This document shows, one piece after another, positions 1 to 58,859 of a stretch of DNA of 64,000 bases (position 1 is the first letter of the stretch; each line of letters begins with the position of its first letter). The translations under genes were made by a program, and so were the position numbers. A model generated the notes under the pieces. It saw only the letters and a list, made by a program, of their open reading frames with translations. It made no database searches and was not told the DNA's origin. This DNA comes from a bacterium. Lineage in GTDB: Bacteria > JAMCPX01. Location of the stretch: NCBI GenBank assembly GCA_021792615.1, contig JAJYUJ010000010.1:1-64000 (forward strand), given 5' to 3'.

Positions 1-29
1 AGGAAACCATACCGGGTAATAGCATATAA

Positions 30-124
30 ACCCCGTTAGAAATGTCGGAATAATACAGATGTTTTTATAATAAAATTCAATCTATTATCGTACAAATTAT
101 CATCTGCTGAGTTTCTAACGGGGT
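30..124. mobile_element. 95-bp MITE-like inverted-repeat element
   Basis: The left end reads ACCCCGTTAGAAAT (30-43) and the right end GTTTCTAACGGGGT (111-124), which are inverted copies with one mismatch. An inner pair CAGATG/CATCTG extends the dyad. The same ends bound the GIY-YIG element at 54885-55164, and the segment GTACAAATTAT next to the right end (90-100) is also present at the matching place there, where it covers the start codon of the GIY-YIG gene. I infer a non-autonomous deletion derivative of that element. It lies beyond the end of aroE and could also fold as a hairpin in that transcript. No target-site duplication is obvious. Confidence 0.65.
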
Positions 125-229
125 GAACATACAGAGGACTAAAAGCTCGTTCCTATAAGGAAACTTATAGATATCAGGTGGATCGCGGGATTGAGCGAAT
201 AAGTAAACTTCCTTATTGCATTTTTCAGG

Positions 230-1078
230 TTAATGATGTTCCTGCAATGCCCTGAGGACGGCCTGTCTCATCACGTCAACCGGGGGCTGGACGCCTGTCC
301 ATAGCTTAAAGCTCTCTGCCCCCTGATAAACAAGCATACCTGCACCGTCGTGCGTTTTCAGCCCCGCATGTTTCGCCCTCTTTAAAAAAGGTGTTTCCAA
401 AGGATTGTAAACGATGTCGGACACAACAGTATCGCTGCCAAAACCGGTCAAATCCATGTCAATATCTCCGGCACCTTTCATACCGATGGATGTCGTGTTG
501 ATAACGAGGTTTATTTTTTTATGGTCAAGAGCATTCATATCCTGAAGGCGGATACTCTGAGAGGAATCTGCGGGGAAATAGACGCACAGGTGCCTGTGAA
601 GGGCTTCAGCCCTTCCCGGTGTCCTGTTCGCGATGATGATTTTGTCCGCTCCAGCCTCAAGCAAGGAAAAAGCAACTGCTTTGGCAGCCCCGCCTGCACC
701 TATCATGAGGACCTGCTTGCCGCGGGGATCGAACCCTGCCTGTTCACCCAGCGACTTGATATAACCGATCCCGTCCGTGTTGTAGCCTTTTAACCTGCCG
801 TTCTCATTGTTGACCGTATTCACAGCCCCGATTCTGTTTGCGTACCCGTCGACGCTGTCAAGATACGGCACGATGTCCTCTTTATACGGTATGGTTACGT
901 TGAATCCTTTTATGCGTTCTTTCCTGAACTGCGCTACAGCGTGTGATAAATTTTCGGGCAGGATATCAAAGCTCATGTAAACATAATCAATGCCGAGGGT
1001 GAAGATAGCCGACATGTGCATGGGTACGGAGAGGCTGTGATCAAGCGGGTGTCCCACGATACCGAGGACAAGGGTCAT
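230..1078 (-). CDS. aroE: shikimate dehydrogenase
   Basis: NADPH-dependent reduction of 3-dehydroshikimate to shikimate in the cytoplasmic chorismate pathway. The 282-residue length is normal. The substrate motif SLSVPMH is at 15-21, the catalytic pair Lys66 (NVTIPYKED) and Asp102 (YNTDG) is present, the glycine-rich nucleotide loop GAGGAAKA is at 127-134 with NRT at 151-153, and the C-terminal GMLVYQGAESFKLW motif is intact. The ATG overlaps the ribF stop by 4 nt, so it is translationally coupled as the last gene of deoB-ribF-aroE. It supplies chorismate, the substrate of MqnA encoded elsewhere in this window. Confidence 0.95.
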   Translation of the reverse strand: MTLVLGIVGHPLDHSLSVPMHMSAIFTLGIDYVYMSFDILPENLSHAVAQFRKERIKGFNVTIPYKEDIVPYLDSVDGYANRIGAVNTVNNENGRLKGYNTDGIGYIKSLGEQAGFDPRGKQVLMIGAGGAAKAVAFSLLEAGADKIIIANRTPGRAEALHRHLCVYFPADSSQSIRLQDMNALDHKKINLVINTTSIGMKGAGDIDMDLTGFGSDTVVSDIVYNPLETPFLKRAKHAGLKTHDGAGMLVYQGAESFKLWTGVQPPVDVMRQAVLRALQEHH

Positions 1079-22838: not shown

Positions 22839-22883
22839 AAAATAAAAATTTACCCCCGTTAGAACGTCCCGCCATCGGGGACG
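22839..22883 (-). terminator. hairpin plus T-rich tract downstream of comM
   Basis: Reading the bottom strand after the comM stop, arms CGTCCC/GGGACG (22865-22870 and 22878-22883) form a short GC-rich hairpin. About 12 nt later comes a T-rich run (bottom strand of 22839-22852). The spacing is looser than a classic intrinsic terminator. Nothing else is visible in the 242-bp space between comM and purH apart from a single CCCCCGTTAGA motif at 22853-22863. Confidence 0.35.
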
Positions 22884-22954
22884 GGGATAATAGATAAATT
22901 TATATATCCTTAGAGAAAGGGCGTTGTTCAAAGCCACGTACTTTCGAACCGGGT

Positions 22955-50459: not shown

Positions 50460-52970
50460 ATGCCTGAAGAGCGATACAGACACATTTTCCTAAGTGGGCC
50501 AAATCAGACACAAAGATTTACAAATCCACGACGAGGTGGTTCGCTGTTTCCGATTAAAGATCGTAACCGCGGGGAACACAGTTACTATCTACAACAGCGT
50601 ATTGAAGAGGCATGGCGTGCAGCGAATGAGCGTCGATCTGTTTCTCTCGTTGAGAAATATGGAACATATATTGAGTTCATTAGCGAGCCAGGCTTTGATT
50701 TGATCGTTCAAAGTCTGGAGGCAAGGCATTCTGGAATTCGTCTTCTTAATGTCCGAAAAGAGGGTAATGAAGGGAACGTGAGCACACATGCTACAGTCTA
50801 TGTGCCACACGATAAACGTGGATATTTTTTAAGAAAGATTCAGGCATATGCGACTGAAAATGATAGGAGAAGTGAGCAACCTAAAAACATTAAATTAATT
50901 AACAACCTTAAGGATATTCGACTTGCAGTTTTGGAATCTTTTTGGAGATCGGAAGACCTTCTATTAATTCCAAGAGAGAACCCAGAGTGGAGTGAGGTAT
51001 GGATAAGTAGTAATGAAGACAGCGTTGTTTCTCGTTTTGAGGCATCATTAAGAATTCTACGTATAGAATCGAAAACGGGGCTGCTTAAATTTCCTGAAAG
51101 ATCAGTAAAGCTCATCTTTGCGAATCGAAATCAATTGGAACAGTTAATTGAAACTTCAGACGATGTTGCGGAGTTACGGGCAGCTAAAGAAATAGCTACG
51201 TTCTTTATTGCGATGAGTAACCAAGAACAAATAGTGCAGCTTCAGGATCTTATTAGACGCACCAACTTTAATCGTAATACAGATGTGGCAATTTGCATAC
51301 TTGATACTGGTGTGAATAATGGACACCCGCTCATTCGGCCGATTTTAGATAATACAGATCGTCATACGATCAATCAAGCATGGGGTGTAAACGATGAGAC
51401 CGTAGGCCCTAACAGCGGTCATGGTACTTTGATGGCCGGTATGGCTGCTTATGGCGATCTACTATCTGCTCTTAATGGCAATGACTCTGTACGAATTGAT
51501 CATCGCATTGAGTCCGCGAAAATCTTACCACCTCATCCAGTGCAGAATCAAAAAGATTTGTGGGGCTATATAACTGCTCAAGGTATAAGCCGGGCGGAGA
51601 TTCAGGCTTCTCATCGTAAGCGAATCATTTGCATGGCGATTACTTCACCCGACAGTCGCGATCGGGGCAAACCCTCCTCATGGTCTGCCAATATAGATGC
51701 ATTATCTTCTGGATTTGAAGACGCTACCCATCGGCTCATAGTACTTAGTGCCGGAAACATTGATGACCCCAATAGTTGGTGCAACTATCCCAATGACAAT
51801 CTAACAAATGAAATACACGACCCTGCTCAAGCATGGAACGCATTAACTGTTGGCGCCTTTACAGAAAAGACCAGAATTATCGATCCAACACTAAGTACTT
51901 ATACCCCTATTGCTCCGTCTGGAGGGCTTTCACCTTTCAGTACGACTTCTGTAACTTGGCCCGATCGAAAATGGCCTATTAAACCTGAAGTTCTTTTCGA
52001 AGGTGGTAATGCTGCACGTGCTCCTAACAATTCTGCGTTGAATATTGATGATCTGCAATTACTTTCGACGAATCATGATATTTTAACTGCCCAATTTGCA
52101 ATATTTAGTGGAACAAGTGCTGCTTGTGCTCAAGCTGCACAGATGGCTGCACAGATTCAAGCTCAATACACTGATGCTTGGCCAGAGACAGTCCGCGGAT
52201 TAATTGTTCATACAGCAGAATGGACTGATGCCATGAGGAGGCAATTTTTGCAGACACAATCTCCAACAAGAGGCGAGTTTGCTAAATTGCTTCGAATTTG
52301 TGGATATGGTGTACCAAATCTCAATCGCGCCCTTTACTGCACATCAAATTCTTTGACCTTAATTTCACAAGCACAATTACATCCTTTCGATTACGACGAA
52401 CAAAAACACCGCTATGTAACGCGTGATATGCATCTATATAATCTTCCATGGCCGAGAGATGTATTATCAGATCTTGGTGGAAGAGAAGTAAACATGCGAG
52501 TCACACTTTCCTACTTCATAGAGCCAGCACCGGGAGAAGTAGGTTGGGACGCCCGATACCGATACGCCTCTCATGCACTCAGATTTGAAGTTAATGGGCC
52601 AACAGAGTCTGAAATGCAGTTTGTCCAACGCATCAACAATCAGGCTCGTGATGACGGAGAACATCCTGGGACACAAGGACCTAGAGATAAATGGCTTATT
52701 GGCAATGCGAGAAATGTAGGCTCTATTCACTCCGATATCTGGCAAGGAACAGCGGCCGATCTTGCAGAATCTCATTTGATTGCAGTATATCCAACTGTCG
52801 GTTGGTGGCGTGAAAGGCATCATCTGGAACAGTGGAACCGCCAGGCTCGCTATGCATTAATTGTATCGATTTACACCAAGGAACAGAATATCGATATTTA
52901 TACGCCAGTAGCGGCCCAAATTAGAACGTCAGTTCCTATTGAGATTCCCGTCAATCGAAGGGCACATTAA
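50460..52970 (+). CDS. large S8 (subtilisin-like) serine protease
   Basis: 836 residues with no signal peptide, so probably cytoplasmic. About 270 N-terminal residues of unknown fold precede the peptidase domain. The catalytic triad is intact: Asp282 (ICILDTGVNNGHP), His321 (NSGHGTLMAGMAA) and Ser553 (IFSGTSAACAQAA); SAGNIDDPNSW carries the oxyanion Asn region. About 200 C-terminal residues resemble a beta-rich domain. A cytoplasmic subtilase paired with an AAA ATPase suggests regulated intracellular proteolysis. AbiV-like gene follows after 14 nt. Confidence 0.92.
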   Translation: MPEERYRHIFLSGPNQTQRFTNPRRGGSLFPIKDRNRGEHSYYLQQRIEEAWRAANERRSVSLVEKYGTYIEFISEPGFDLIVQSLEARHSGIRLLNVRKEGNEGNVSTHATVYVPHDKRGYFLRKIQAYATENDRRSEQPKNIKLINNLKDIRLAVLESFWRSEDLLLIPRENPEWSEVWISSNEDSVVSRFEASLRILRIESKTGLLKFPERSVKLIFANRNQLEQLIETSDDVAELRAAKEIATFFIAMSNQEQIVQLQDLIRRTNFNRNTDVAICILDTGVNNGHPLIRPILDNTDRHTINQAWGVNDETVGPNSGHGTLMAGMAAYGDLLSALNGNDSVRIDHRIESAKILPPHPVQNQKDLWGYITAQGISRAEIQASHRKRIICMAITSPDSRDRGKPSSWSANIDALSSGFEDATHRLIVLSAGNIDDPNSWCNYPNDNLTNEIHDPAQAWNALTVGAFTEKTRIIDPTLSTYTPIAPSGGLSPFSTTSVTWPDRKWPIKPEVLFEGGNAARAPNNSALNIDDLQLLSTNHDILTAQFAIFSGTSAACAQAAQMAAQIQAQYTDAWPETVRGLIVHTAEWTDAMRRQFLQTQSPTRGEFAKLLRICGYGVPNLNRALYCTSNSLTLISQAQLHPFDYDEQKHRYVTRDMHLYNLPWPRDVLSDLGGREVNMRVTLSYFIEPAPGEVGWDARYRYASHALRFEVNGPTESEMQFVQRINNQARDDGEHPGTQGPRDKWLIGNARNVGSIHSDIWQGTAADLAESHLIAVYPTVGWWRERHHLEQWNRQARYALIVSIYTKEQNIDIYTPVAAQIRTSVPIEIPVNRRAH

Positions 52971-52984
52971 TAAAAAAGAAATCA

Positions 52985-53686
52985 ATGGTCAAAAAACAAA
53001 AGGAGAGAGTCAAAGAATTTCACGAATATTCACAGAGTGTCCGTGATAAAGGTGCAAAGCTTGCTTATCAAAACGCGCTTCGACATATAAGAGCAGCCCA
53101 TATACTCGCCGAAAATAGCGACTATGGAAATGGAATTTCTCATTTAGTTCTCGGTATAGAAGAAGCTATGAAAGCGCTTATACTTTTCAGTTATCGTTTT
53201 AACGAGCGGGTATCAATCCCGGAATCACCCAAGATACTTAAGGAAATATTTCATAAACACGAGCCAAAACAACATACTTTCTTGCCCATGGTATTGATGA
53301 TAGAGGTTTACAGAAAAGTAGACCCCTGGTCCAGCAAAGACAGGAACAGTGTTGTCAGAAACTTGACGACATGGTTAGATACTCAGATCAAATCGAAAAA
53401 TTCTGTAATGGATAGAGTTCTGAGAGAACTTAAGAGAATGAATGACTCCAAAAAAGATGGGTTCTATGTCGATTTTCGAAACGATGTTTGGGTGGATCCG
53501 ATAAAGAAAAAAAAGACAGATTACACGAGATTGGAAAAGATCGTTACTCCTTATATCGAGGTATTTAGAAACATTTTTTCCCTAAGCAACAAAGAGTTGG
53601 AAAAAAACATGAAGTTGGTGGAGAAAATATTGTCAGGGAAAAAAGGGATCACCTTTTTACAAAGTAGGAGCAACGATCGTTTATAG
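52985..53686 (+). CDS. AbiV-like (HEPN) protein
   Basis: 233 residues, all alpha. It matches the AbiV layout: NALRHIRAAHILAE, then GISHLVLGIEEAMKALILF, then IFHKHEPKQHTFLPMV. AbiV is an abortive-infection factor of lactococci and belongs to the HEPN group. An R-x5-H pattern (RHIRAAH) is present but its position is not the standard one, so RNase activity is uncertain. It shares strand and tight spacing with the AAA and protease genes and is probably the third component or effector. Confidence 0.72.
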   Translation: MVKKQKERVKEFHEYSQSVRDKGAKLAYQNALRHIRAAHILAENSDYGNGISHLVLGIEEAMKALILFSYRFNERVSIPESPKILKEIFHKHEPKQHTFLPMVLMIEVYRKVDPWSSKDRNSVVRNLTTWLDTQIKSKNSVMDRVLRELKRMNDSKKDGFYVDFRNDVWVDPIKKKKTDYTRLEKIVTPYIEVFRNIFSLSNKELEKNMKLVEKILSGKKGITFLQSRSNDRL

Positions 53687-53739
53687 GGAAACGGGATGCA
53701 GGACGAGCTTCCGTAAAAACTGTCAGCCCCTCTGCCAAC

Positions 53740-54681
53740 TTACCGCTCATATATTTCTTTATTATGCCATTCTAAATATTCTTTAGAGGGTAAATCCAGG
53801 GGATCTGAAGGTAAGCTTAGAAGCTTTTTGCCGTGCAATGCGTAATAGTCCCGTCCATTTTCATATTCTTCTTTTATAAATTTACTGACTTCTACATGGT
53901 GGTCTGTAGTTATCGTCATATAACCTGCATCAAATAGCTTGTGTAGGTCCGAACGAAGCAGGATGCCATTATTTACGCTGTGAGGGCCGGACGATGAATA
54001 AGGTTTTATATGGGCTGATTCCAAGGCTGGAAGGGTACGTTCTCCTGTAATGGCGCATTTTTTATTATATGCTTCGATGATAACGACCCTGAAACCACCC
54101 TGACCTAAACGCTGATGTGCCAGATATTCGCCGCCGTACCTTGGTTCGACTACCTCATGATTGTAAATACCGCTCTCTTGAATAGGGTTGATCCCTTTAA
54201 TTCGCTCATCGACTTTTTCCCACAATGAGCTGCCTACGGGATCTTCGGTATAATACGTTTTACCTCTGACTATATTCGAGCTCCAATTTACAGGCACAGG
54301 GATCCAGTCTTTTTCATTAAAAAAGAACGGATTCGTCAGGACAATACAGCCAATGAATGGATCGGGGATGAAGTGTCTGTTGTTGTTTTGTTGGTAATGC
54401 TGGATCCTTTCCCTGAAACTCTGGAAATTTCCGGCACCGTTTTTCTCTTGAAATGTATCCCAGGCTATAGAAAGGGGCAGTTGTGAGTATTTAACAAAGA
54501 AACCACCGCCGCTGATAAAATTAAGAGGGCTGTGTAGCTTGAAAAGGAAAGGTGACCAAGGTTGGATTGCCCCGAACCTCGTAACCCCGCTTGGCTGCCA
54601 GAAGTTGACCTCGTCTATGGAAGGCCTTGAAGCCAAAAAATCAAACCAGGATTTATCGGTAACTCCGACCCAAAACTTCAT
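53740..54681 (-). CDS. HNH endonuclease with EVE/PUA-like N-terminus
   Basis: 313 residues from ATG 54681 (AAGGGG upstream). The C-terminal HNH_2-type domain is KKCAITGERTLPALESAHIK, then NNGILLRSDLHKLFDAGYMTI, giving His-Asn-His. The N-terminus MKFWVGVTDKSWFDFL and the following beta-rich region recall EVE/PUA-type modified-base readers. That combination is known in modification-dependent (type IV-like) restriction enzymes, so I infer cleavage of modified phage DNA. It is convergent with the AAA-protease-AbiV operon. Confidence 0.75.
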   Translation of the reverse strand: MKFWVGVTDKSWFDFLASRPSIDEVNFWQPSGVTRFGAIQPWSPFLFKLHSPLNFISGGGFFVKYSQLPLSIAWDTFQEKNGAGNFQSFRERIQHYQQNNNRHFIPDPFIGCIVLTNPFFFNEKDWIPVPVNWSSNIVRGKTYYTEDPVGSSLWEKVDERIKGINPIQESGIYNHEVVEPRYGGEYLAHQRLGQGGFRVVIIEAYNKKCAITGERTLPALESAHIKPYSSSGPHSVNNGILLRSDLHKLFDAGYMTITTDHHVEVSKFIKEEYENGRDYYALHGKKLLSLPSDPLDLPSKEYLEWHNKEIYER

Positions 54682-54882
54682 TCATTCCCCTTAAATAAAT
54701 AAATTATTTGTATCTTGTTACGCTGAGATTATATTTATTACAGTTTTCTTTAAAGAGCAAGGGTAGATAATTAGTGGAATGCTTTAAACGCACGCAACTT
54801 GTCTTTAGGTGTGCTTATTTCAATTCAAGGAATAGATCTGCTGGTTTTTTGGAACCATTGCCTAAGTAAAAATTCAACCTAT

Positions 54883-55143
54883 TTACCCCGTTAGAGATAG
54901 GAAACGCTTGAGCCTGTTTTTTAGATATCGCTTTCCCATCCCCGTTTTTAAATATTTTTCTCTACTTCTTGCATCTTGCTCGTTCAAGCAAGCCTCGTAA
55001 TAAATGAGTTCAAACGGACATCTATACTTTGTAGAAAATACTTTTCCAGAATTATGTTCCATCAAGCGTTTCCGTAGATCGTTGGTAGAGCCGGTATAAA
55101 GATGTTTGTCTTTCAAACTAATAAGCACATAGGTGTAGTACAA
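54883..55143 (-). CDS. small GIY-YIG nuclease
   Basis: 86 residues starting at TTG 55143. It has the YYTYVLISLKDKHLYTGST motif (the GIY-YIG equivalent, with Y-V-L and Y-T-G), the catalytic Arg in NDLRKRLMEHNSG, and FELIYYEACLNEQDARSREK with the catalytic Glu, ending KRYLKNRLKRF. This is the stand-alone UvrC-like GIY-YIG family (UPF0213 type). The gene fills its inverted-repeat element almost completely, so I infer a homing- or transposition-like role. Confidence 0.88.
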   Translation of the reverse strand: MYYTYVLISLKDKHLYTGSTNDLRKRLMEHNSGKVFSTKYRCPFELIYYEACLNEQDARSREKYLKTGMGKRYLKNRLKRFLSLTG

Positions 55144-55164
55144 ATTATAAATCTCTAACGGGGT
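54885..55164 (-). mobile_element. 280-bp GIY-YIG element with 14-bp terminal inverted repeats
   Basis: ACCCCGTTAGAGAT (54885-54898) and ATCTCTAACGGGGT (55151-55164) are perfect inverted repeats. They enclose one gene, a GIY-YIG nuclease whose last codons (Leu-Thr-Gly-stop) are read from the repeat itself. The element sits inside another gene. Two short elements with the same ends occur at 30-124 and 56259-56356. Confidence 0.8.
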
Positions 55165-55585
55165 GAACGAATCTTATCTCATTTGTGATAGTTACAGGTG
55201 GCATGGTATTTTCGTCACTAAAATCGTCACCATCCGAAGTTTCCGTCAGGATATGATACTTCGGGTTTTTTGCGCAGAAATCTTTGAGTTCTTGGAGCCG
55301 ATGTATATCAAATGTACCGTTCTCGTTGTCCGGGTGGATGCCCACGGTGTCCCAGTCCGTACCTTCTATCAACATCCCCGTGAATTTCAAAAACTTGCCA
55401 AAATCCTTAAAATTGCGGACCTTTATAAATCTTTTTTTGTTATTCAAAACGGGCTGGCACCCAATGCCAAGCAAGTCTTCCAGTGTCTTACCGATGCCTG
55501 TGCCCCCAGCACGGCGGGTCTTAACAAATCCCATGTCCCTTATGGCCTCAAGCCTCTTTTTTAATTCCTTAATTGAATCCGGCAT
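55145..55585 (-). pseudogene. MvaI/BcnI-like restriction gene remnant, interrupted by the GIY-YIG element
   Basis: Starts at ATG 55585 behind GAGGAGGG. Residues 5-38 (LKKRLEAIRDMGFVKTRRAG, then GTGIGKTLEDLLGI) match the N-terminus of MvaI/BcnI-type restriction enzymes. The rest does not resemble that family, so an internal deletion or fusion is likely. The frame ends HPVRDL-stop, where HPVRD is encoded by the inverted repeat of the inserted element. Beyond the element the bottom strand at about 54874-54815 reads NRLNFYLGNGSKKPADLFLELK (first 20 residues fit as a continuation) before a stop. Confidence 0.6.
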
Positions 55586-55696: not shown

Positions 55697-56212
55697 TCAT
55701 AAGAATCCTATCCTGTTCTTTGGTTTTTCAGGTGTAGATATGAGCTGGTGAATTGCTTCCATAATTGATTCAATCTCTTCATCATGCCCATCGACTCTCA
55801 TCTCAAGCAGTTTAAGCTTCTGCACAAGTTCTTTATGGGTGCCGAGAATCTCCCGCAGACGGACAAATGTTTTAACTATGAGTATACTCATACGTATTGC
55901 CTGCTTGCTGTTCAATACAGCGGCCAGCATAGCAACTCCATGCTCGGTAAAGGCATAAGGTGAAGAATATGAATGTTTTAAAAGAGCAAACCGGTGCCAA
56001 TTTGTCACCAGTTCATCTTTTTCATACTTTGTCAGCTTAAACATAAACTCTTTTGGAAATCTTTCTATATTCCTTTTAACTTGCCTATTCAGGTATTTTG
56101 TTTCTACACCATAGAGTACCGCCAGATCCCTATCCAGCATTACCTTCTGTCCCCGGATGAGCAGGATTTTCTGCTCTATCGTTTCAATCGGAACAAGTAC
56201 CTTTGACTCCAT
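55697..56212 (-). CDS. ORF6N-domain protein (intact copy)
   Basis: 171 residues from ATG 56212 ([20 protein letters not shown]). The ORF6N DNA-binding-type domain is complete: GQKVMLDRDLAVLYGVETKY, KRNIERFPKEFMFKLT, YAFTEHGVAMLAAVLNS. A C-terminal coiled coil (about 115-160) follows. ORF6N proteins come from phages and islands; function is not established. Codons near residue 75 contain the palindrome CCGGTGCCAA-T-TTGTCACCAG (55991-56011). Confidence 0.88.
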   Translation of the reverse strand: MESKVLVPIETIEQKILLIRGQKVMLDRDLAVLYGVETKYLNRQVKRNIERFPKEFMFKLTKYEKDELVTNWHRFALLKHSYSSPYAFTEHGVAMLAAVLNSKQAIRMSILIVKTFVRLREILGTHKELVQKLKLLEMRVDGHDEEIESIMEAIHQLISTPEKPKNRIGFL

Positions 56213-56258
56213 GATACCTCCTAATACGCAGTATACGCTATAAAATCGTAATATGTCA

Positions 56259-56356
56259 ACCCCGTTAGAAGATTGGAGCACACAACAATATAGAGATTAA
56301 ACAGCTTGCACTGGCAAGATTATCTGTATGAAATGACAGGAATATATTAACGGGGT
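56259..56356. mobile_element. 98-bp MITE-like inverted-repeat element
   Basis: Ends ACCCCGTTA (56259-56267) and TAACGGGGT (56348-56356) are perfect 9-bp inverted repeats and match the tips of the GIY-YIG element and of the element at 30-124. The interior is A/T-rich and non-coding. It lies just upstream of the intact ORF6N gene. Confidence 0.6.
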
Positions 56357-56377
56357 AAAGTGAATTTAAAGGACTGG

Positions 56378-56398
56378 ATTCCGCATCGAGTGCGGAAT
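56378..56398. repeat. REP-like palindrome
   Basis: ATTCCGCA/TGCGGAAT, perfect 8-bp arms with a 5-bp loop, followed by GACGG. The same style of repeat (TGGATTCC..GGAATGAC) occurs at 59714-59738. Confidence 0.6.
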
Positions 56399-56482
56399 GA
56401 CGGAGGGCAAATAAAGAATCATAACGCCCCTTGCCCCTCTTATCTTAAGAGGGGGACAATGCAGAAGCAGACAATATGACTC

Positions 56483-56794
56483 TCACAGAAGTTTGTTTAC
56501 GAGTTGTTTTAAGTTGGTGATTCTCTGCCAGCCGAGGTCTTTGACCACAACCTCACCGTCAAAGTAATAATAAACGTCATTTTTTACTTCTGAGACATTG
56601 CCGTCGCCATAATATGCAAGAAGGTATTTATGGATATTTTGCTCCAGACTTTTTTCATTTTTTGCATAGAAGGCTTTTACAAACGGTTGTCCATACTGAC
56701 CACTGGTCAGCTCAAAGGTGGCAAGGTAAAGATTTTTACCATTCGAGGTTGTTACCGAATCGCTTTTAGCCGGTATAGCCTGATACGTTTTCAT
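56483..56794 (-). CDS. small hypothetical protein
   Basis: 103 residues behind a strong GGAGGAGT site at ATG 56794. Beta-rich N-terminal half (LYLATFELTSGQYGQPFVKA, then FYAKNEKSLEQNI) and Tyr-rich middle (DVYYYFDG). No family recognised. It lies between ORF6N copies and may be another mobile-island gene. Confidence 0.6.
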   Translation of the reverse strand: MKTYQAIPAKSDSVTTSNGKNLYLATFELTSGQYGQPFVKAFYAKNEKSLEQNIHKYLLAYYGDGNVSEVKNDVYYYFDGEVVVKDLGWQRITNLKQLVNKLL

Positions 56795-56820
56795 TACTCC
56801 TCCTTTCTTTGTTTATAAAT

Positions 56821-57315
56821 TTACAGCTTGTTTAAACAAAGGCTATCACAATTTGTGATACCACAAGGATCTCTTCCCGGGATAATTTGGGTCTTGCTAA
56901 AACATTGAAATGCTTTTGTAAAGGATGCCCTGTCCTGCCTGTGGCGTGACCACCCTTTTGCAAAAAAGGAATTGAAATATGTGAAGAACCGCGCTGTAAA
57001 CAGCGAGGATTCTTCGTCTGAAAGCATCGCTACCCCTTGTTCTGTAAAAGCATAAGGAAGATATCGGCGGCCTCCTCTGCTGGATTTCTTTGACATTCCA
57101 ATTTGGAATTTCAAAGAATAAGTTCCTTCCTTTGTAAGCTGAAACATAAAATCCTTTGGGAACCGATCGCTGTTTCGTTTAACAGCTTTGTTTAAATTGA
57201 AAGTTTCTACTTCATAAAGTTCCGCGAGATCCATAGCAAGCATTACCTTCTGTCCCCGGATGAGCAGGATTTTCTGCTCTATCGTTTCAATCGGAACGAG
57301 TGCCTTTGACTCCAT
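56821..57315 (-). pseudogene. ORF6N gene (copy 2), 3' part replaced by repeat sequence
   Basis: The first about 98 codons from ATG 57315 are a good ORF6N domain ([20 protein letters not shown] to [15 protein letters not shown]). From there the frame runs through the GAAGAATCC hairpin repeat (56964-57018) and non-homologous sequence, so the normal ORF6N C-terminus is lost. Its start region is nearly identical in DNA to copy 3. Codons for LKFQIGMS hold the 27-bp palindrome TTTGACATTCCAA-T-TTGGAATTTCAAA (57089-57115, 12 of 13 pairs). Confidence 0.75.
56964..57018 (+). repeat. hairpin repeat, copy inside ORF6N copy 2
   Basis: A segment of about 54 bp that differs from 59743-59796 at only two or three positions. 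Its core (56983-57015) is an imperfect palindrome GAAGAACC..GCTGTAAACAGC..GGATTCTTC. Confidence 0.75.
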
Positions 57316-57476
57316 GATTCCTCCTTTCCAGGTCAGACAGTATATGGAATTTATTTATATATATGAAAGGAAGCCAAGAATGTCAACGATAATTCGTAAT
57401 ATATTGACAATAACGAATAGTAACAATAGATTGTGTGCATACTGCGGAATGCAAGAGTTGTGAGAAAGGAATAGCG

Positions 57477-58499
57477 TTGAAAAATAAAATGCAAATTAAT
57501 GAATACGCCGATTTGCTACTGGAAGTTAAACAGCGAATCCGCTCTGCCCAGTATGAAGCCCTAAAAGCCGTCAACAAAAAACTGATACAACTCTATTGGG
57601 ACATTGGGAAGATGATTGTGAAACAACAAAATCTTCACGGCTGGGGTAAATCCATAGTAAAAAACCTTGCTCAAGATTTACAGATTGAATTCCCTGGTGT
57701 ACAGGGCTATTCAAAAGATAATCTCTGGCGTATGCGAAAGTTCTATTTGCAGTACAATGAGGATTCAAAACTTGCACCAGTGGTGCAAGAAATAGGATGG
57801 GCTCATAATATAGTTATTATGGAAACCTGTACGGATGATTTAGAACGTGAATTCTATATCCGAATGACCAGTCGCATGGGGTGGAGCAAGAATGTGCTTA
57901 TTCATCAGATAGAAAACAGAACCTACGAGAAAACGTTGCTGAATCAGACAAATTTCAGCAGAGCTTTACCCGAAAAAATAAAAAATCAGGCAAAAATGGC
58001 AGTTAAAGATGAATATACCTTTGATTTTCTTGAGCTGAATGAAGAATATAGTGAAATGGAACTCGAAAGGGCATTGATATCCAAAGTCAACCGGTTCCTT
58101 GTAGGAATGGGCGGTGCATTTGCATTTATGGGCAATCAGTTCCGTCTGGAAATAGATGGTGAGGAATTCTCTATCGATATTTTACTCTATCACCGCCGGT
58201 TAAAATGCCTTGTTGCAATTGAACTGAAAGTCGGCAAGTTTCTGCCGGAGTATGTAGGGAAGATGCAGTTTTATCTTGCGGTTCTAGATAAAATAGTACG
58301 GCAAAATGGTGAAAATCCTTCGATCGGCATTATCTTGTGCAAAGACAAAAAACGGACAATTGTTGAATATGCATTAAAAGAAAGCAATAAGCCGATTGCA
58401 GTAGCACAATATCGCATGACACAGACCTTACCAAAGAATCTCCAGAAAGAGTTCCCGGCACCAGAACAAATACAAAAGCTTTTCGACGAGGCGATATAA
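57477..58499 (+). CDS. DUF1016 / YhcG-type PD-(D/E)XK nuclease-domain protein (copy 2)
   Basis: 340 residues from TTG 57477, chosen because GAAAGGA lies 6 nt before it; ATG 57489 is an alternative. The same two-domain layout as copy 1: LIQLYWDIGKMIVKQQNLHG, YSKDNLWRMRKFYLQY, then FSIDILLYHRRLKCLVAIEL-K-VG and NGENPSIGIILCKDKK. Only one KLAPVVQEI motif is present where copy 1 has three. The DNA for it is a perfect palindrome CTTGCACCA-G-TGGTGCAAG (57771-57789). Confidence 0.9.
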   Translation: MKNKMQINEYADLLLEVKQRIRSAQYEALKAVNKKLIQLYWDIGKMIVKQQNLHGWGKSIVKNLAQDLQIEFPGVQGYSKDNLWRMRKFYLQYNEDSKLAPVVQEIGWAHNIVIMETCTDDLEREFYIRMTSRMGWSKNVLIHQIENRTYEKTLLNQTNFSRALPEKIKNQAKMAVKDEYTFDFLELNEEYSEMELERALISKVNRFLVGMGGAFAFMGNQFRLEIDGEEFSIDILLYHRRLKCLVAIELKVGKFLPEYVGKMQFYLAVLDKIVRQNGENPSIGIILCKDKKRTIVEYALKESNKPIAVAQYRMTQTLPKNLQKEFPAPEQIQKLFDEAI

Positions 58500-58516
58500 A
58501 CGGTGAGGGAGACGTT

Positions 58517-58859
58517 TCAGATGAATCCTATTTTACGGTGTTTGGGTTCGGGAGGTGTCATAAGTTCACGAATGGCATCGAAAACAATTCTGAACTGATT
58601 GTCATACTTTTTTTCAAGTTCATCTACTTGTTATTGAGGTCACAAATTGTGACCTTAAAGCTGCAACCTCTTGATAATTAAGCTGCAACATAAAATCCTT
58701 TGGGAACCGATCGCTGTTTCGTTTAACAGCTTTGTTTAAATTAAAAGTTTCTACTTCATAAAGTTCCGCGAGATCCATAGCAAGCATTACCTTCTGTCCC
58801 CGGATGAGCAGGATTTTCTGCTCTATCGTTTCAATCGGAACAAGTACCTTTGACTCCAT
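58517..58859 (-). pseudogene. ORF6N gene (copy 3) with internal deletion
   Basis: From ATG 58859 the first about 75 codons are ORF6N ([42 protein letters not shown]), ending at a stop at 58620. A second frame on the same strand from about 58630 to the TGA at 58517 encodes a typical ORF6N C-terminus ([20 protein letters not shown], then [16 protein letters not shown]). The middle, including the AFTEQG block, is missing and the two parts are out of frame. The palindrome TTGAGGTCACAA-A-TTGTGACCTTAA is at 58634-58658. Confidence 0.8.

Follow-up and report, generated by a model that had tools for sequence, protein, structure and literature searches.

A 278-bp element with a single GIY-YIG nuclease gene, probably an autonomous member of a minimal DNA transposon family with gene-less derivatives

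The element of interest lies on the minus strand of a 64,000-nucleotide stretch of bacterial DNA (contig JAJYUJ010000010.1; "the window" refers to this entire stretch). It consists of one small nuclease gene between two inverted repeats, and it interrupts a host gene. The window also contains three gene-less copies, referred to below as MITEs. The features are as follows.

54886–55163, minus strand: GIY-YIG mini-transposon of 278 bp, running from CCCC to GGGG; 98.9% identical copy in G001, empty allele in G003
54885–54898, plus strand: terminal inverted repeat ACCCCGTTAGAGAT, 14 bp, at the 3' end of the gene
55151–55164, minus strand: terminal inverted repeat, second copy of ACCCCGTTAGAGAT (plus strand ATCTCTAACGGGGT), at the 5' end, with the start codon downstream
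54883–55143, minus strand: stand-alone GIY-YIG nuclease gene, 86 aa, TTG start; the single ORF of the element, which it fills
54882–54885, plus strand: flanking tetranucleotide TTTA (TAAA in gene orientation), read from the window
55164–55167, plus strand: flanking tetranucleotide TGAA (TTCA in gene orientation); G003 empty allele TTCATGAA
55164–55615, minus strand: 5' part of the interrupted host gene, an MvaI/BcnI-like restriction endonuclease (PF15515, E=1.3e-5)
54815–54886, minus strand: 3' tail of the host gene, VNRLNFYLGNGSKKPADLFLELK followed by a stop; frame conserved in G001, G008 and the uninterrupted G003 allele
30–124, plus strand: MITE of 94 bp, with ends as in the GIY-YIG element; lies within a ~324-bp repeat of a different type
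56259–56356, plus strand: MITE of 96 bp, sharing the ends, one of which is decayed (ATATTAACGGGG)
22854–22953, plus strand: gene-less copy of 100 bp, one end decayed; intact in G004 (C347)

The two 14-bp repeats, ACCCCGTTAGAGAT (54885–54898) and ATCTCTAACGGGGT (55151–55164), are perfectly complementary and enclose a single ORF, just as a sequence-only reading of the window had described. That reading had also observed that the final codons of the gene are the inverted repeat; indeed, CTA ACG GGG (L-T-G) is both, and the stop codon, TAA, is supplied by the flank. The start codon is TTG in the window gene and ATG in the near-identical G001 copy. The encoded protein has one Pfam domain only (GIY-YIG, PF01541, E=2.7e-16), and its catalytic residues (Y3/Y5, Y16, G18, R26, H30 and E50) are conserved in an alignment of 78 relatives. 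At 86 aa, the protein lacks the DNA-binding domain that follows the nuclease domain in homing-type enzymes. No known transposase is encoded, only a GIY-YIG domain. Among NCBIfam models the nearest is that for a group I intron endonuclease (below its cut-off), and the closest solved relatives by sequence are UPF0213 (1zg2, 1ywl) and the SLX1 structure-specific nucleases. UPF0213 and SLX1 are host proteins, without bounding inverted repeats.

The element splits the 3' part of the MvaI/BcnI-like gene, and the tail, VNRLNFYLGNGSKKPADLFLELK, resumes beyond it. In G003, a genome of the same genus, the site is empty and reads TTCATGAAC. The insertion shows no target duplication because both flanking words are already present in the empty G003 allele. 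A 3' remnant of the element is kept at this site by G008. Comparison of G000 and G001—different genera with the element at the same site—reveals 98.9% identity within the element and 79–89% in the flanks, with right-flank identity dropping from ~0.95 to 0.72 across 280 bp; this looks like a recent, perhaps homing-like, allelic transfer of the element. The neighbourhood at 50460–54681 is defence-like, with a subtilase gene, an AbiV-like HEPN gene, and an HNH gene that resembles phosphorothioated-DNA restriction enzymes (below cut-off). Adjoining the element, at 55697–58859, are three repeated ORF6N-domain genes (D1 repeat family) and a DUF1016/YhcG nuclease gene.

A search for the repeats at other sites, suggested by the sequence-only reading, found them at dozens. 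In the 2.54-Mb genome, CCCCGTTAGA occurs 75 times (34+41), compared with three (2+1) for a reversed control, and ACCCCGTTAGA with at most one mismatch occurs seven times in the window, where 0.97 are expected. Exact end pairs with a 70–100-bp gap number 18 in this genome and zero in the control; four of eight related genomes contain 3–18 such pairs each, again with none in the controls. The ends of 30–124 and 56259–56356 are, as had been claimed, those of the GIY-YIG element, and 22854–22953 is a further, decayed copy. The first two and their relatives have the properties of MITEs: they are short and gene-less, and they have ends and duplications in common with the gene-bearing element. The proposal that 30–124 is a deletion derivative of the window gene was rejected on two grounds: its inner end is AAA rather than GAT, and it lies inside a ~324-bp dispersed repeat; the 11-mer that it shares with the start region of the window gene is weak evidence of descent. 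This ~324-bp repeat, with ends TTAACCCGAAAAATGC..GCATTTTTCGGGTTAA, is seen at window positions 1–234, at L029:1381–1704, and in about 14 further genome copies. One 94-bp MITE had inserted into the repeat before the repeat spread. At C62:4004–4112 lies a copy derived by internal deletion from a different GIY-YIG gene, reading MFYTYIIRSVKDRKWHT-VLINDLLSLTG followed by a stop. Across Omnitrophota (e.g., G224, G303 and G040), MITE lengths appear clustered at about 53, 65, 80, 94 and 102 bp, and many interiors appear to have two hairpins inside the terminal stem; this cloverleaf-like fold could matter to a structure-specific nuclease.

The distribution of the element was investigated by a GTDB-wide genome scan for CCCCGTTAGA..TCTAACGGGG ends placed 231–291 bp apart. 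At least 112 stretches were recovered, and 80 of the 114 end-defined elements among the matches listed encode the same small GIY-YIG protein; we estimate that chance pairs account for a few tens at most. Among these matches the hosts fall into dozens of phylum-level groups, including Omnitrophota, many Patescibacteria groups, Bacteroidota, Thermodesulfobacteriota, Nitrospirota, Planctomycetota, Cloacimonadota, Elusimicrobiota and others. Terminal inverted repeats are thus common to copies at unrelated sites, as in transposons. A tree of 77 proteins (87 columns, poorly resolved) requires 38 label changes for 31 phylum-level groups, with a minimum of 30 and a shuffled value of 41.9; movement between phyla seems hard to avoid. 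Searches of PLSDB, INPHARED and IMG/VR gave no match that would indicate phage, plasmid or viral carriage. The median dN/dS of the nuclease is 0.13, and all 313 comparisons lie below 0.5; the nuclease has therefore been kept functional by purifying selection.

In the reverse test, GIY-YIG genes were picked by protein similarity alone from 384 Omnitrophota genomes and the best 30 were taken. Exact CCCCGTTAGA ends lie on both sides of 18 of these 30 genes, and ends with up to two mismatches on both sides of 23 (shuffles, 0/600). Three diverged GIY-YIG genes have variant ends that nevertheless match each other, TCCTGTTAGACC in two cases and CCCTGTTAAATAA in one. Seven loci (L218, L223, L226, L227, L229, L230 and L231) carry close GIY-YIG genes without recognisable inverted ends, which may be domesticated, immobile or differently ended copies.

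The two ends of the element co-vary. Among the 80 gene-bearing elements, end position 11 is complementary in every one (35% expected), position 12 in 94%, and position 13 in 80%. Position 11 uses all four letters, with at least 11 changes on the protein tree, and MITE ends co-vary likewise at the positions beside the core. Given that the repeat is coding at one end but untranslated leader at the other, the co-variation reflects a constraint on DNA; it is as would be expected if one protein bound both ends. In G009 the GIY-YIG element has CCTC beside the core, and the genome contains 39 MITEs, nearly all of which, among those listed, have CCT. The inner end sequence of the MITEs does not match that of the resident GIY-YIG element in several other genomes, such as G010, G040, G041 and G043.

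Insertion sites were then compared for direct repeats. A 4-bp target duplication flanks 26 of 49 MITEs, where 2.8 would be expected and 5000 shuffles never gave more than 10, and 22 of 80 gene-bearing copies, where the expectation is 4.2 and the maximum over 2000 shuffles was 11. The excess peaks at 4 bp and is absent at 5 bp or more, meaning that the duplication has the fixed length typical of a transposon, though it is not seen at the window's own site. The empty sites and the comparison of copies with and without the gene that the sequence-only reading had called for were both obtained: empty sites are available for the window element (G003), for MITEs and for a gspG copy, and the two kinds of copy share ends and target duplications. 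Specifically, at three places where this genome carries a MITE, relatives have an empty site with a single copy of the duplicated word (CAAA, TCAA or TAAA). In L125, a full-length GIY-YIG element lies inside gspG with a TTTA duplication (..gagagagga-ttta-[281 bp]-ttta-cgcttatag..); in 47 relatives the homologue is uninterrupted (..aaaggt-tttacgctgatag..).

Many gene-bearing copies show a second kind of flank. The pair TTCA..TAAA, in either orientation and without duplication, borders 25 of the 80 (the window's included), compared with only 3 of 49 MITEs. Among elements without a direct repeat, no outer target duplication was found beyond TTCA..TAAA. Perfectly complementary flanks are depleted in the 80 gene-bearing elements (2 versus 10.9 expected). 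At four loci (L154, L160, L174 and L095), insertion occurred between the A and the TG of a start codon (TTTA|TGAAA), with no duplication; the resulting GGGG|TG provides the gene that follows with a new GTG start.

A further class of insertions lies in pilin-like genes, of which the following are examples.

L092:1400–3460, L071:1532–2643, L125:5276–5974, L209:1171–1812: type IV pilin/pseudopilin genes into which the elements have inserted in frame, exactly at the prepilin cleavage site, including GIY-YIG::pilin fusion ORFs

In L092, four consecutive pseudopilin genes have element ends at the prepilin cleavage site, and in L125, L209 and L071 the complete GIY-YIG protein stands between leader and pilin as an in-frame fusion. 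A search with the junction pattern found 66 sites in 31 of 384 Omnitrophota genomes (none with the control). We read 41 distinct junctions, in which the end lies exactly at the prepilin cleavage site of a pseudopilin gene. A left end could be found in 37, of which 33 show an exact TTYA duplication, preceded by Gly in 19 of the 33 and by Ala in many others. Of these 33 insertions, 27 are in frame, and 26 of the 27 are open. The in-frame outcome follows from what the ends encode: TTY-ACC-CCG-TTA-GAR reads F-T-P-L-E and CTA-ACG-GGG-TTY-ACN reads L-T-G-F-T, giving G|FTPLE on the left and LTG|FT on the right, and so both junctions resemble the prepilin site G|FTxxE. The ends of a mobile element can, it appears, double as a protein-processing site.

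Could something other than the nuclease move these copies? Around 112 loci (808 kb), the 198 end pairs have lengths of 20–220 and 240–310 bp. No larger element with the same ends is among them; five pairings of 330–4000 bp look incidental, and a larger insertion sequence sharing the ends was therefore rejected. Only one of the five, L092:1869–2843, has exact ends and matching flanks, and it resolves into a decayed MITE plus a GIY-YIG element, which lie in neighbouring genes. Integron cassettes with attC sites were also rejected: the core order is reversed in all elements (GTTAGA..TCTAAC, not RYYYAAC..GTTRRRY), and there is no integrase. Co-occurrence was measured in 384 Omnitrophota genomes, since the window's own phylum, with nine genomes, offers too few. 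MITEs are commoner among genomes with a close GIY-YIG gene at E≤1e-28 (32 of 62) than among those without (41 of 322; odds ratio 7.3, p=1e-10), an association that may partly reflect relatedness.

These data bear on the possibility that the GIY-YIG gene is a passenger, that all copies are moved by a conventional transposase which is specific for CCCCGTTAGA and whose gene lies elsewhere, and that the nuclease brings some other benefit, such as defence or the cutting of competitors. Some MITE-rich genomes, possibly incomplete drafts, do lack a close GIY-YIG match (G258 with 12 MITEs, G303 with 10, G366 with 8, and G005, of the window's family, with 13), and the inner ends of MITEs are often unlike those of the resident element. 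However, the 198 pairs include no element large enough for a transposase, such an enzyme would need to retain its specificity across dozens of phyla, and the diverged GIY-YIG genes come with matching variant ends of their own. We consider this explanation unlikely.

Less probable still is that the gene is a free-standing homing endonuclease gene that cuts the empty allele and is copied in, with the repeats incidental or serving as a terminator or stop. The window site invites this explanation, with its near-identical element in two genera, a right-flank decay like that of co-conversion, an empty G003 site without duplication, and the intron endonuclease as nearest NCBIfam model. Homing, however, would place insertions only at the gene's own site in homologous alleles, whereas flanks differ across the 80 loci and copies at unrelated sites have 4-bp duplications; in addition, there are many gene-less copies, which are mobile too, and the same ends recur from phylum to phylum. 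That the repeats are REP-like palindromes maintained by the host for a function of their own (e.g., termination or prepilin processing), with the nuclease a domesticated partner, would fit the structured interiors and the in-frame use in prepilin genes, but is very improbable given the patchy occurrence among close species, the target duplications and empty sites, and the spread across phyla.

The window element is, we think, probably an autonomous member of a minimal DNA transposon family (about 255–310 bp) whose elements are mobilised by their GIY-YIG protein and whose MITEs are moved in trans. Comparison of copies establishes their mobility over evolutionary time, together with the ends, the target duplications and empty sites, the purifying selection that acts on the nuclease, the cross-phylum spread, and the fact that the elements carry no second gene. 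Since the repeats occur at dozens of sites, empty sites exist, and ends and duplications are shared, the original proposal of a minimal selfish element with MITE-like derivatives is well supported, and its spread is far wider than the window could reveal. The companion claim, that the nuclease serves mobility, is upheld as far as the lack of another gene, the selection, and the co-varying ends carry it; these make the GIY-YIG protein most likely the mobilising enzyme, although nuclease-driven movement itself is something that we infer.

In the mechanism that we propose, (i) the nuclease would recognise the 12–14-bp terminal inverted repeats (core CCCCGTTAGA), (ii) it would nick or cut the element ends and a short target, usually TNNA or CNNG, and (iii) host repair would finish the insertion, usually with a 4-bp target duplication. 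GIY-YIG enzymes are hydrolytic nickases or nucleases, and cut-and-repair is therefore likelier than direct strand transfer; the ends are presumably joined by host repair. The same protein would serve the MITEs in trans, via their retained ends. Surviving insertions would be those at low-harm sites, namely intergenic positions, start codons and in-frame positions within prepilin-like genes; in the last of these, the ends would re-create the processing site.

The family resembles DDE insertion sequences with MITE derivatives in its short terminal inverted repeats, fixed-length target duplication, and internal-deletion or gene-less derivatives. It differs in having no DDE, HUH, serine or tyrosine transposase, only an 86-aa domain, and a length of about 310 bp or less. 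Chunjie of Geobacter uraniireducens and other bacterial MITEs are alike in short size, inverted ends and duplications (a likeness by description, not by end sequence), and have other hosts. The same holds for the Rickettsia palindromic elements, which also insert in frame (PMC10969869), as do the prepilin copies here; that review names no GIY-YIG gene. With GIY-YIG homing endonucleases (I-TevI and the free-standing SegA), the element shares the nuclease fold and a selfish gene, and the window copy splits a host gene whose counterpart in a relative has an empty site there; unlike them, it has no intron or extra DNA-binding domain, and has matched inverted ends, target duplications, unrelated sites and MITEs. 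Homing endonucleases, in contrast to transposases, do not recognise their own mobile DNA (PMC1564403). Penelope-like elements also use a GIY-YIG nuclease for genome insertion, but are eukaryotic retroelements with a reverse transcriptase, which is absent here. A 2006 survey of the GIY-YIG superfamily asks whether more of its proteins are molecular parasites, and does not report inverted repeats (PMC1564403).

Searches of the open-access literature found no description of the end sequence, or of a prokaryotic GIY-YIG DNA transposon; as far as that literature goes, the family and its MITEs were previously unrecognised. We know of no GIY-YIG protein that has been shown to transpose DNA. The bacterial DNA transposons that are well known all rely, to our knowledge, on DDE, HUH, serine, tyrosine or Cas1-type enzymes, and their smallest autonomous representatives measure about 700 bp. 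A bolder reading is that the stand-alone GIY-YIG domain acts as a bona fide transposase of DNA (with new chemistry), that these are, at about 260–310 bp, the smallest autonomous transposons known, and that their ends evolved to encode the prepilin motif, making pilin and pseudopilin insertion silent; taken as a whole, we regard this as evenly balanced between right and wrong. A 278-bp element whose sole gene encodes an 86-aa GIY-YIG protein would add a class of mobilising enzyme, would help to explain why candidate phyla have so many stand-alone GIY-YIG genes, and would explain a large, cross-phylum family of MITEs.
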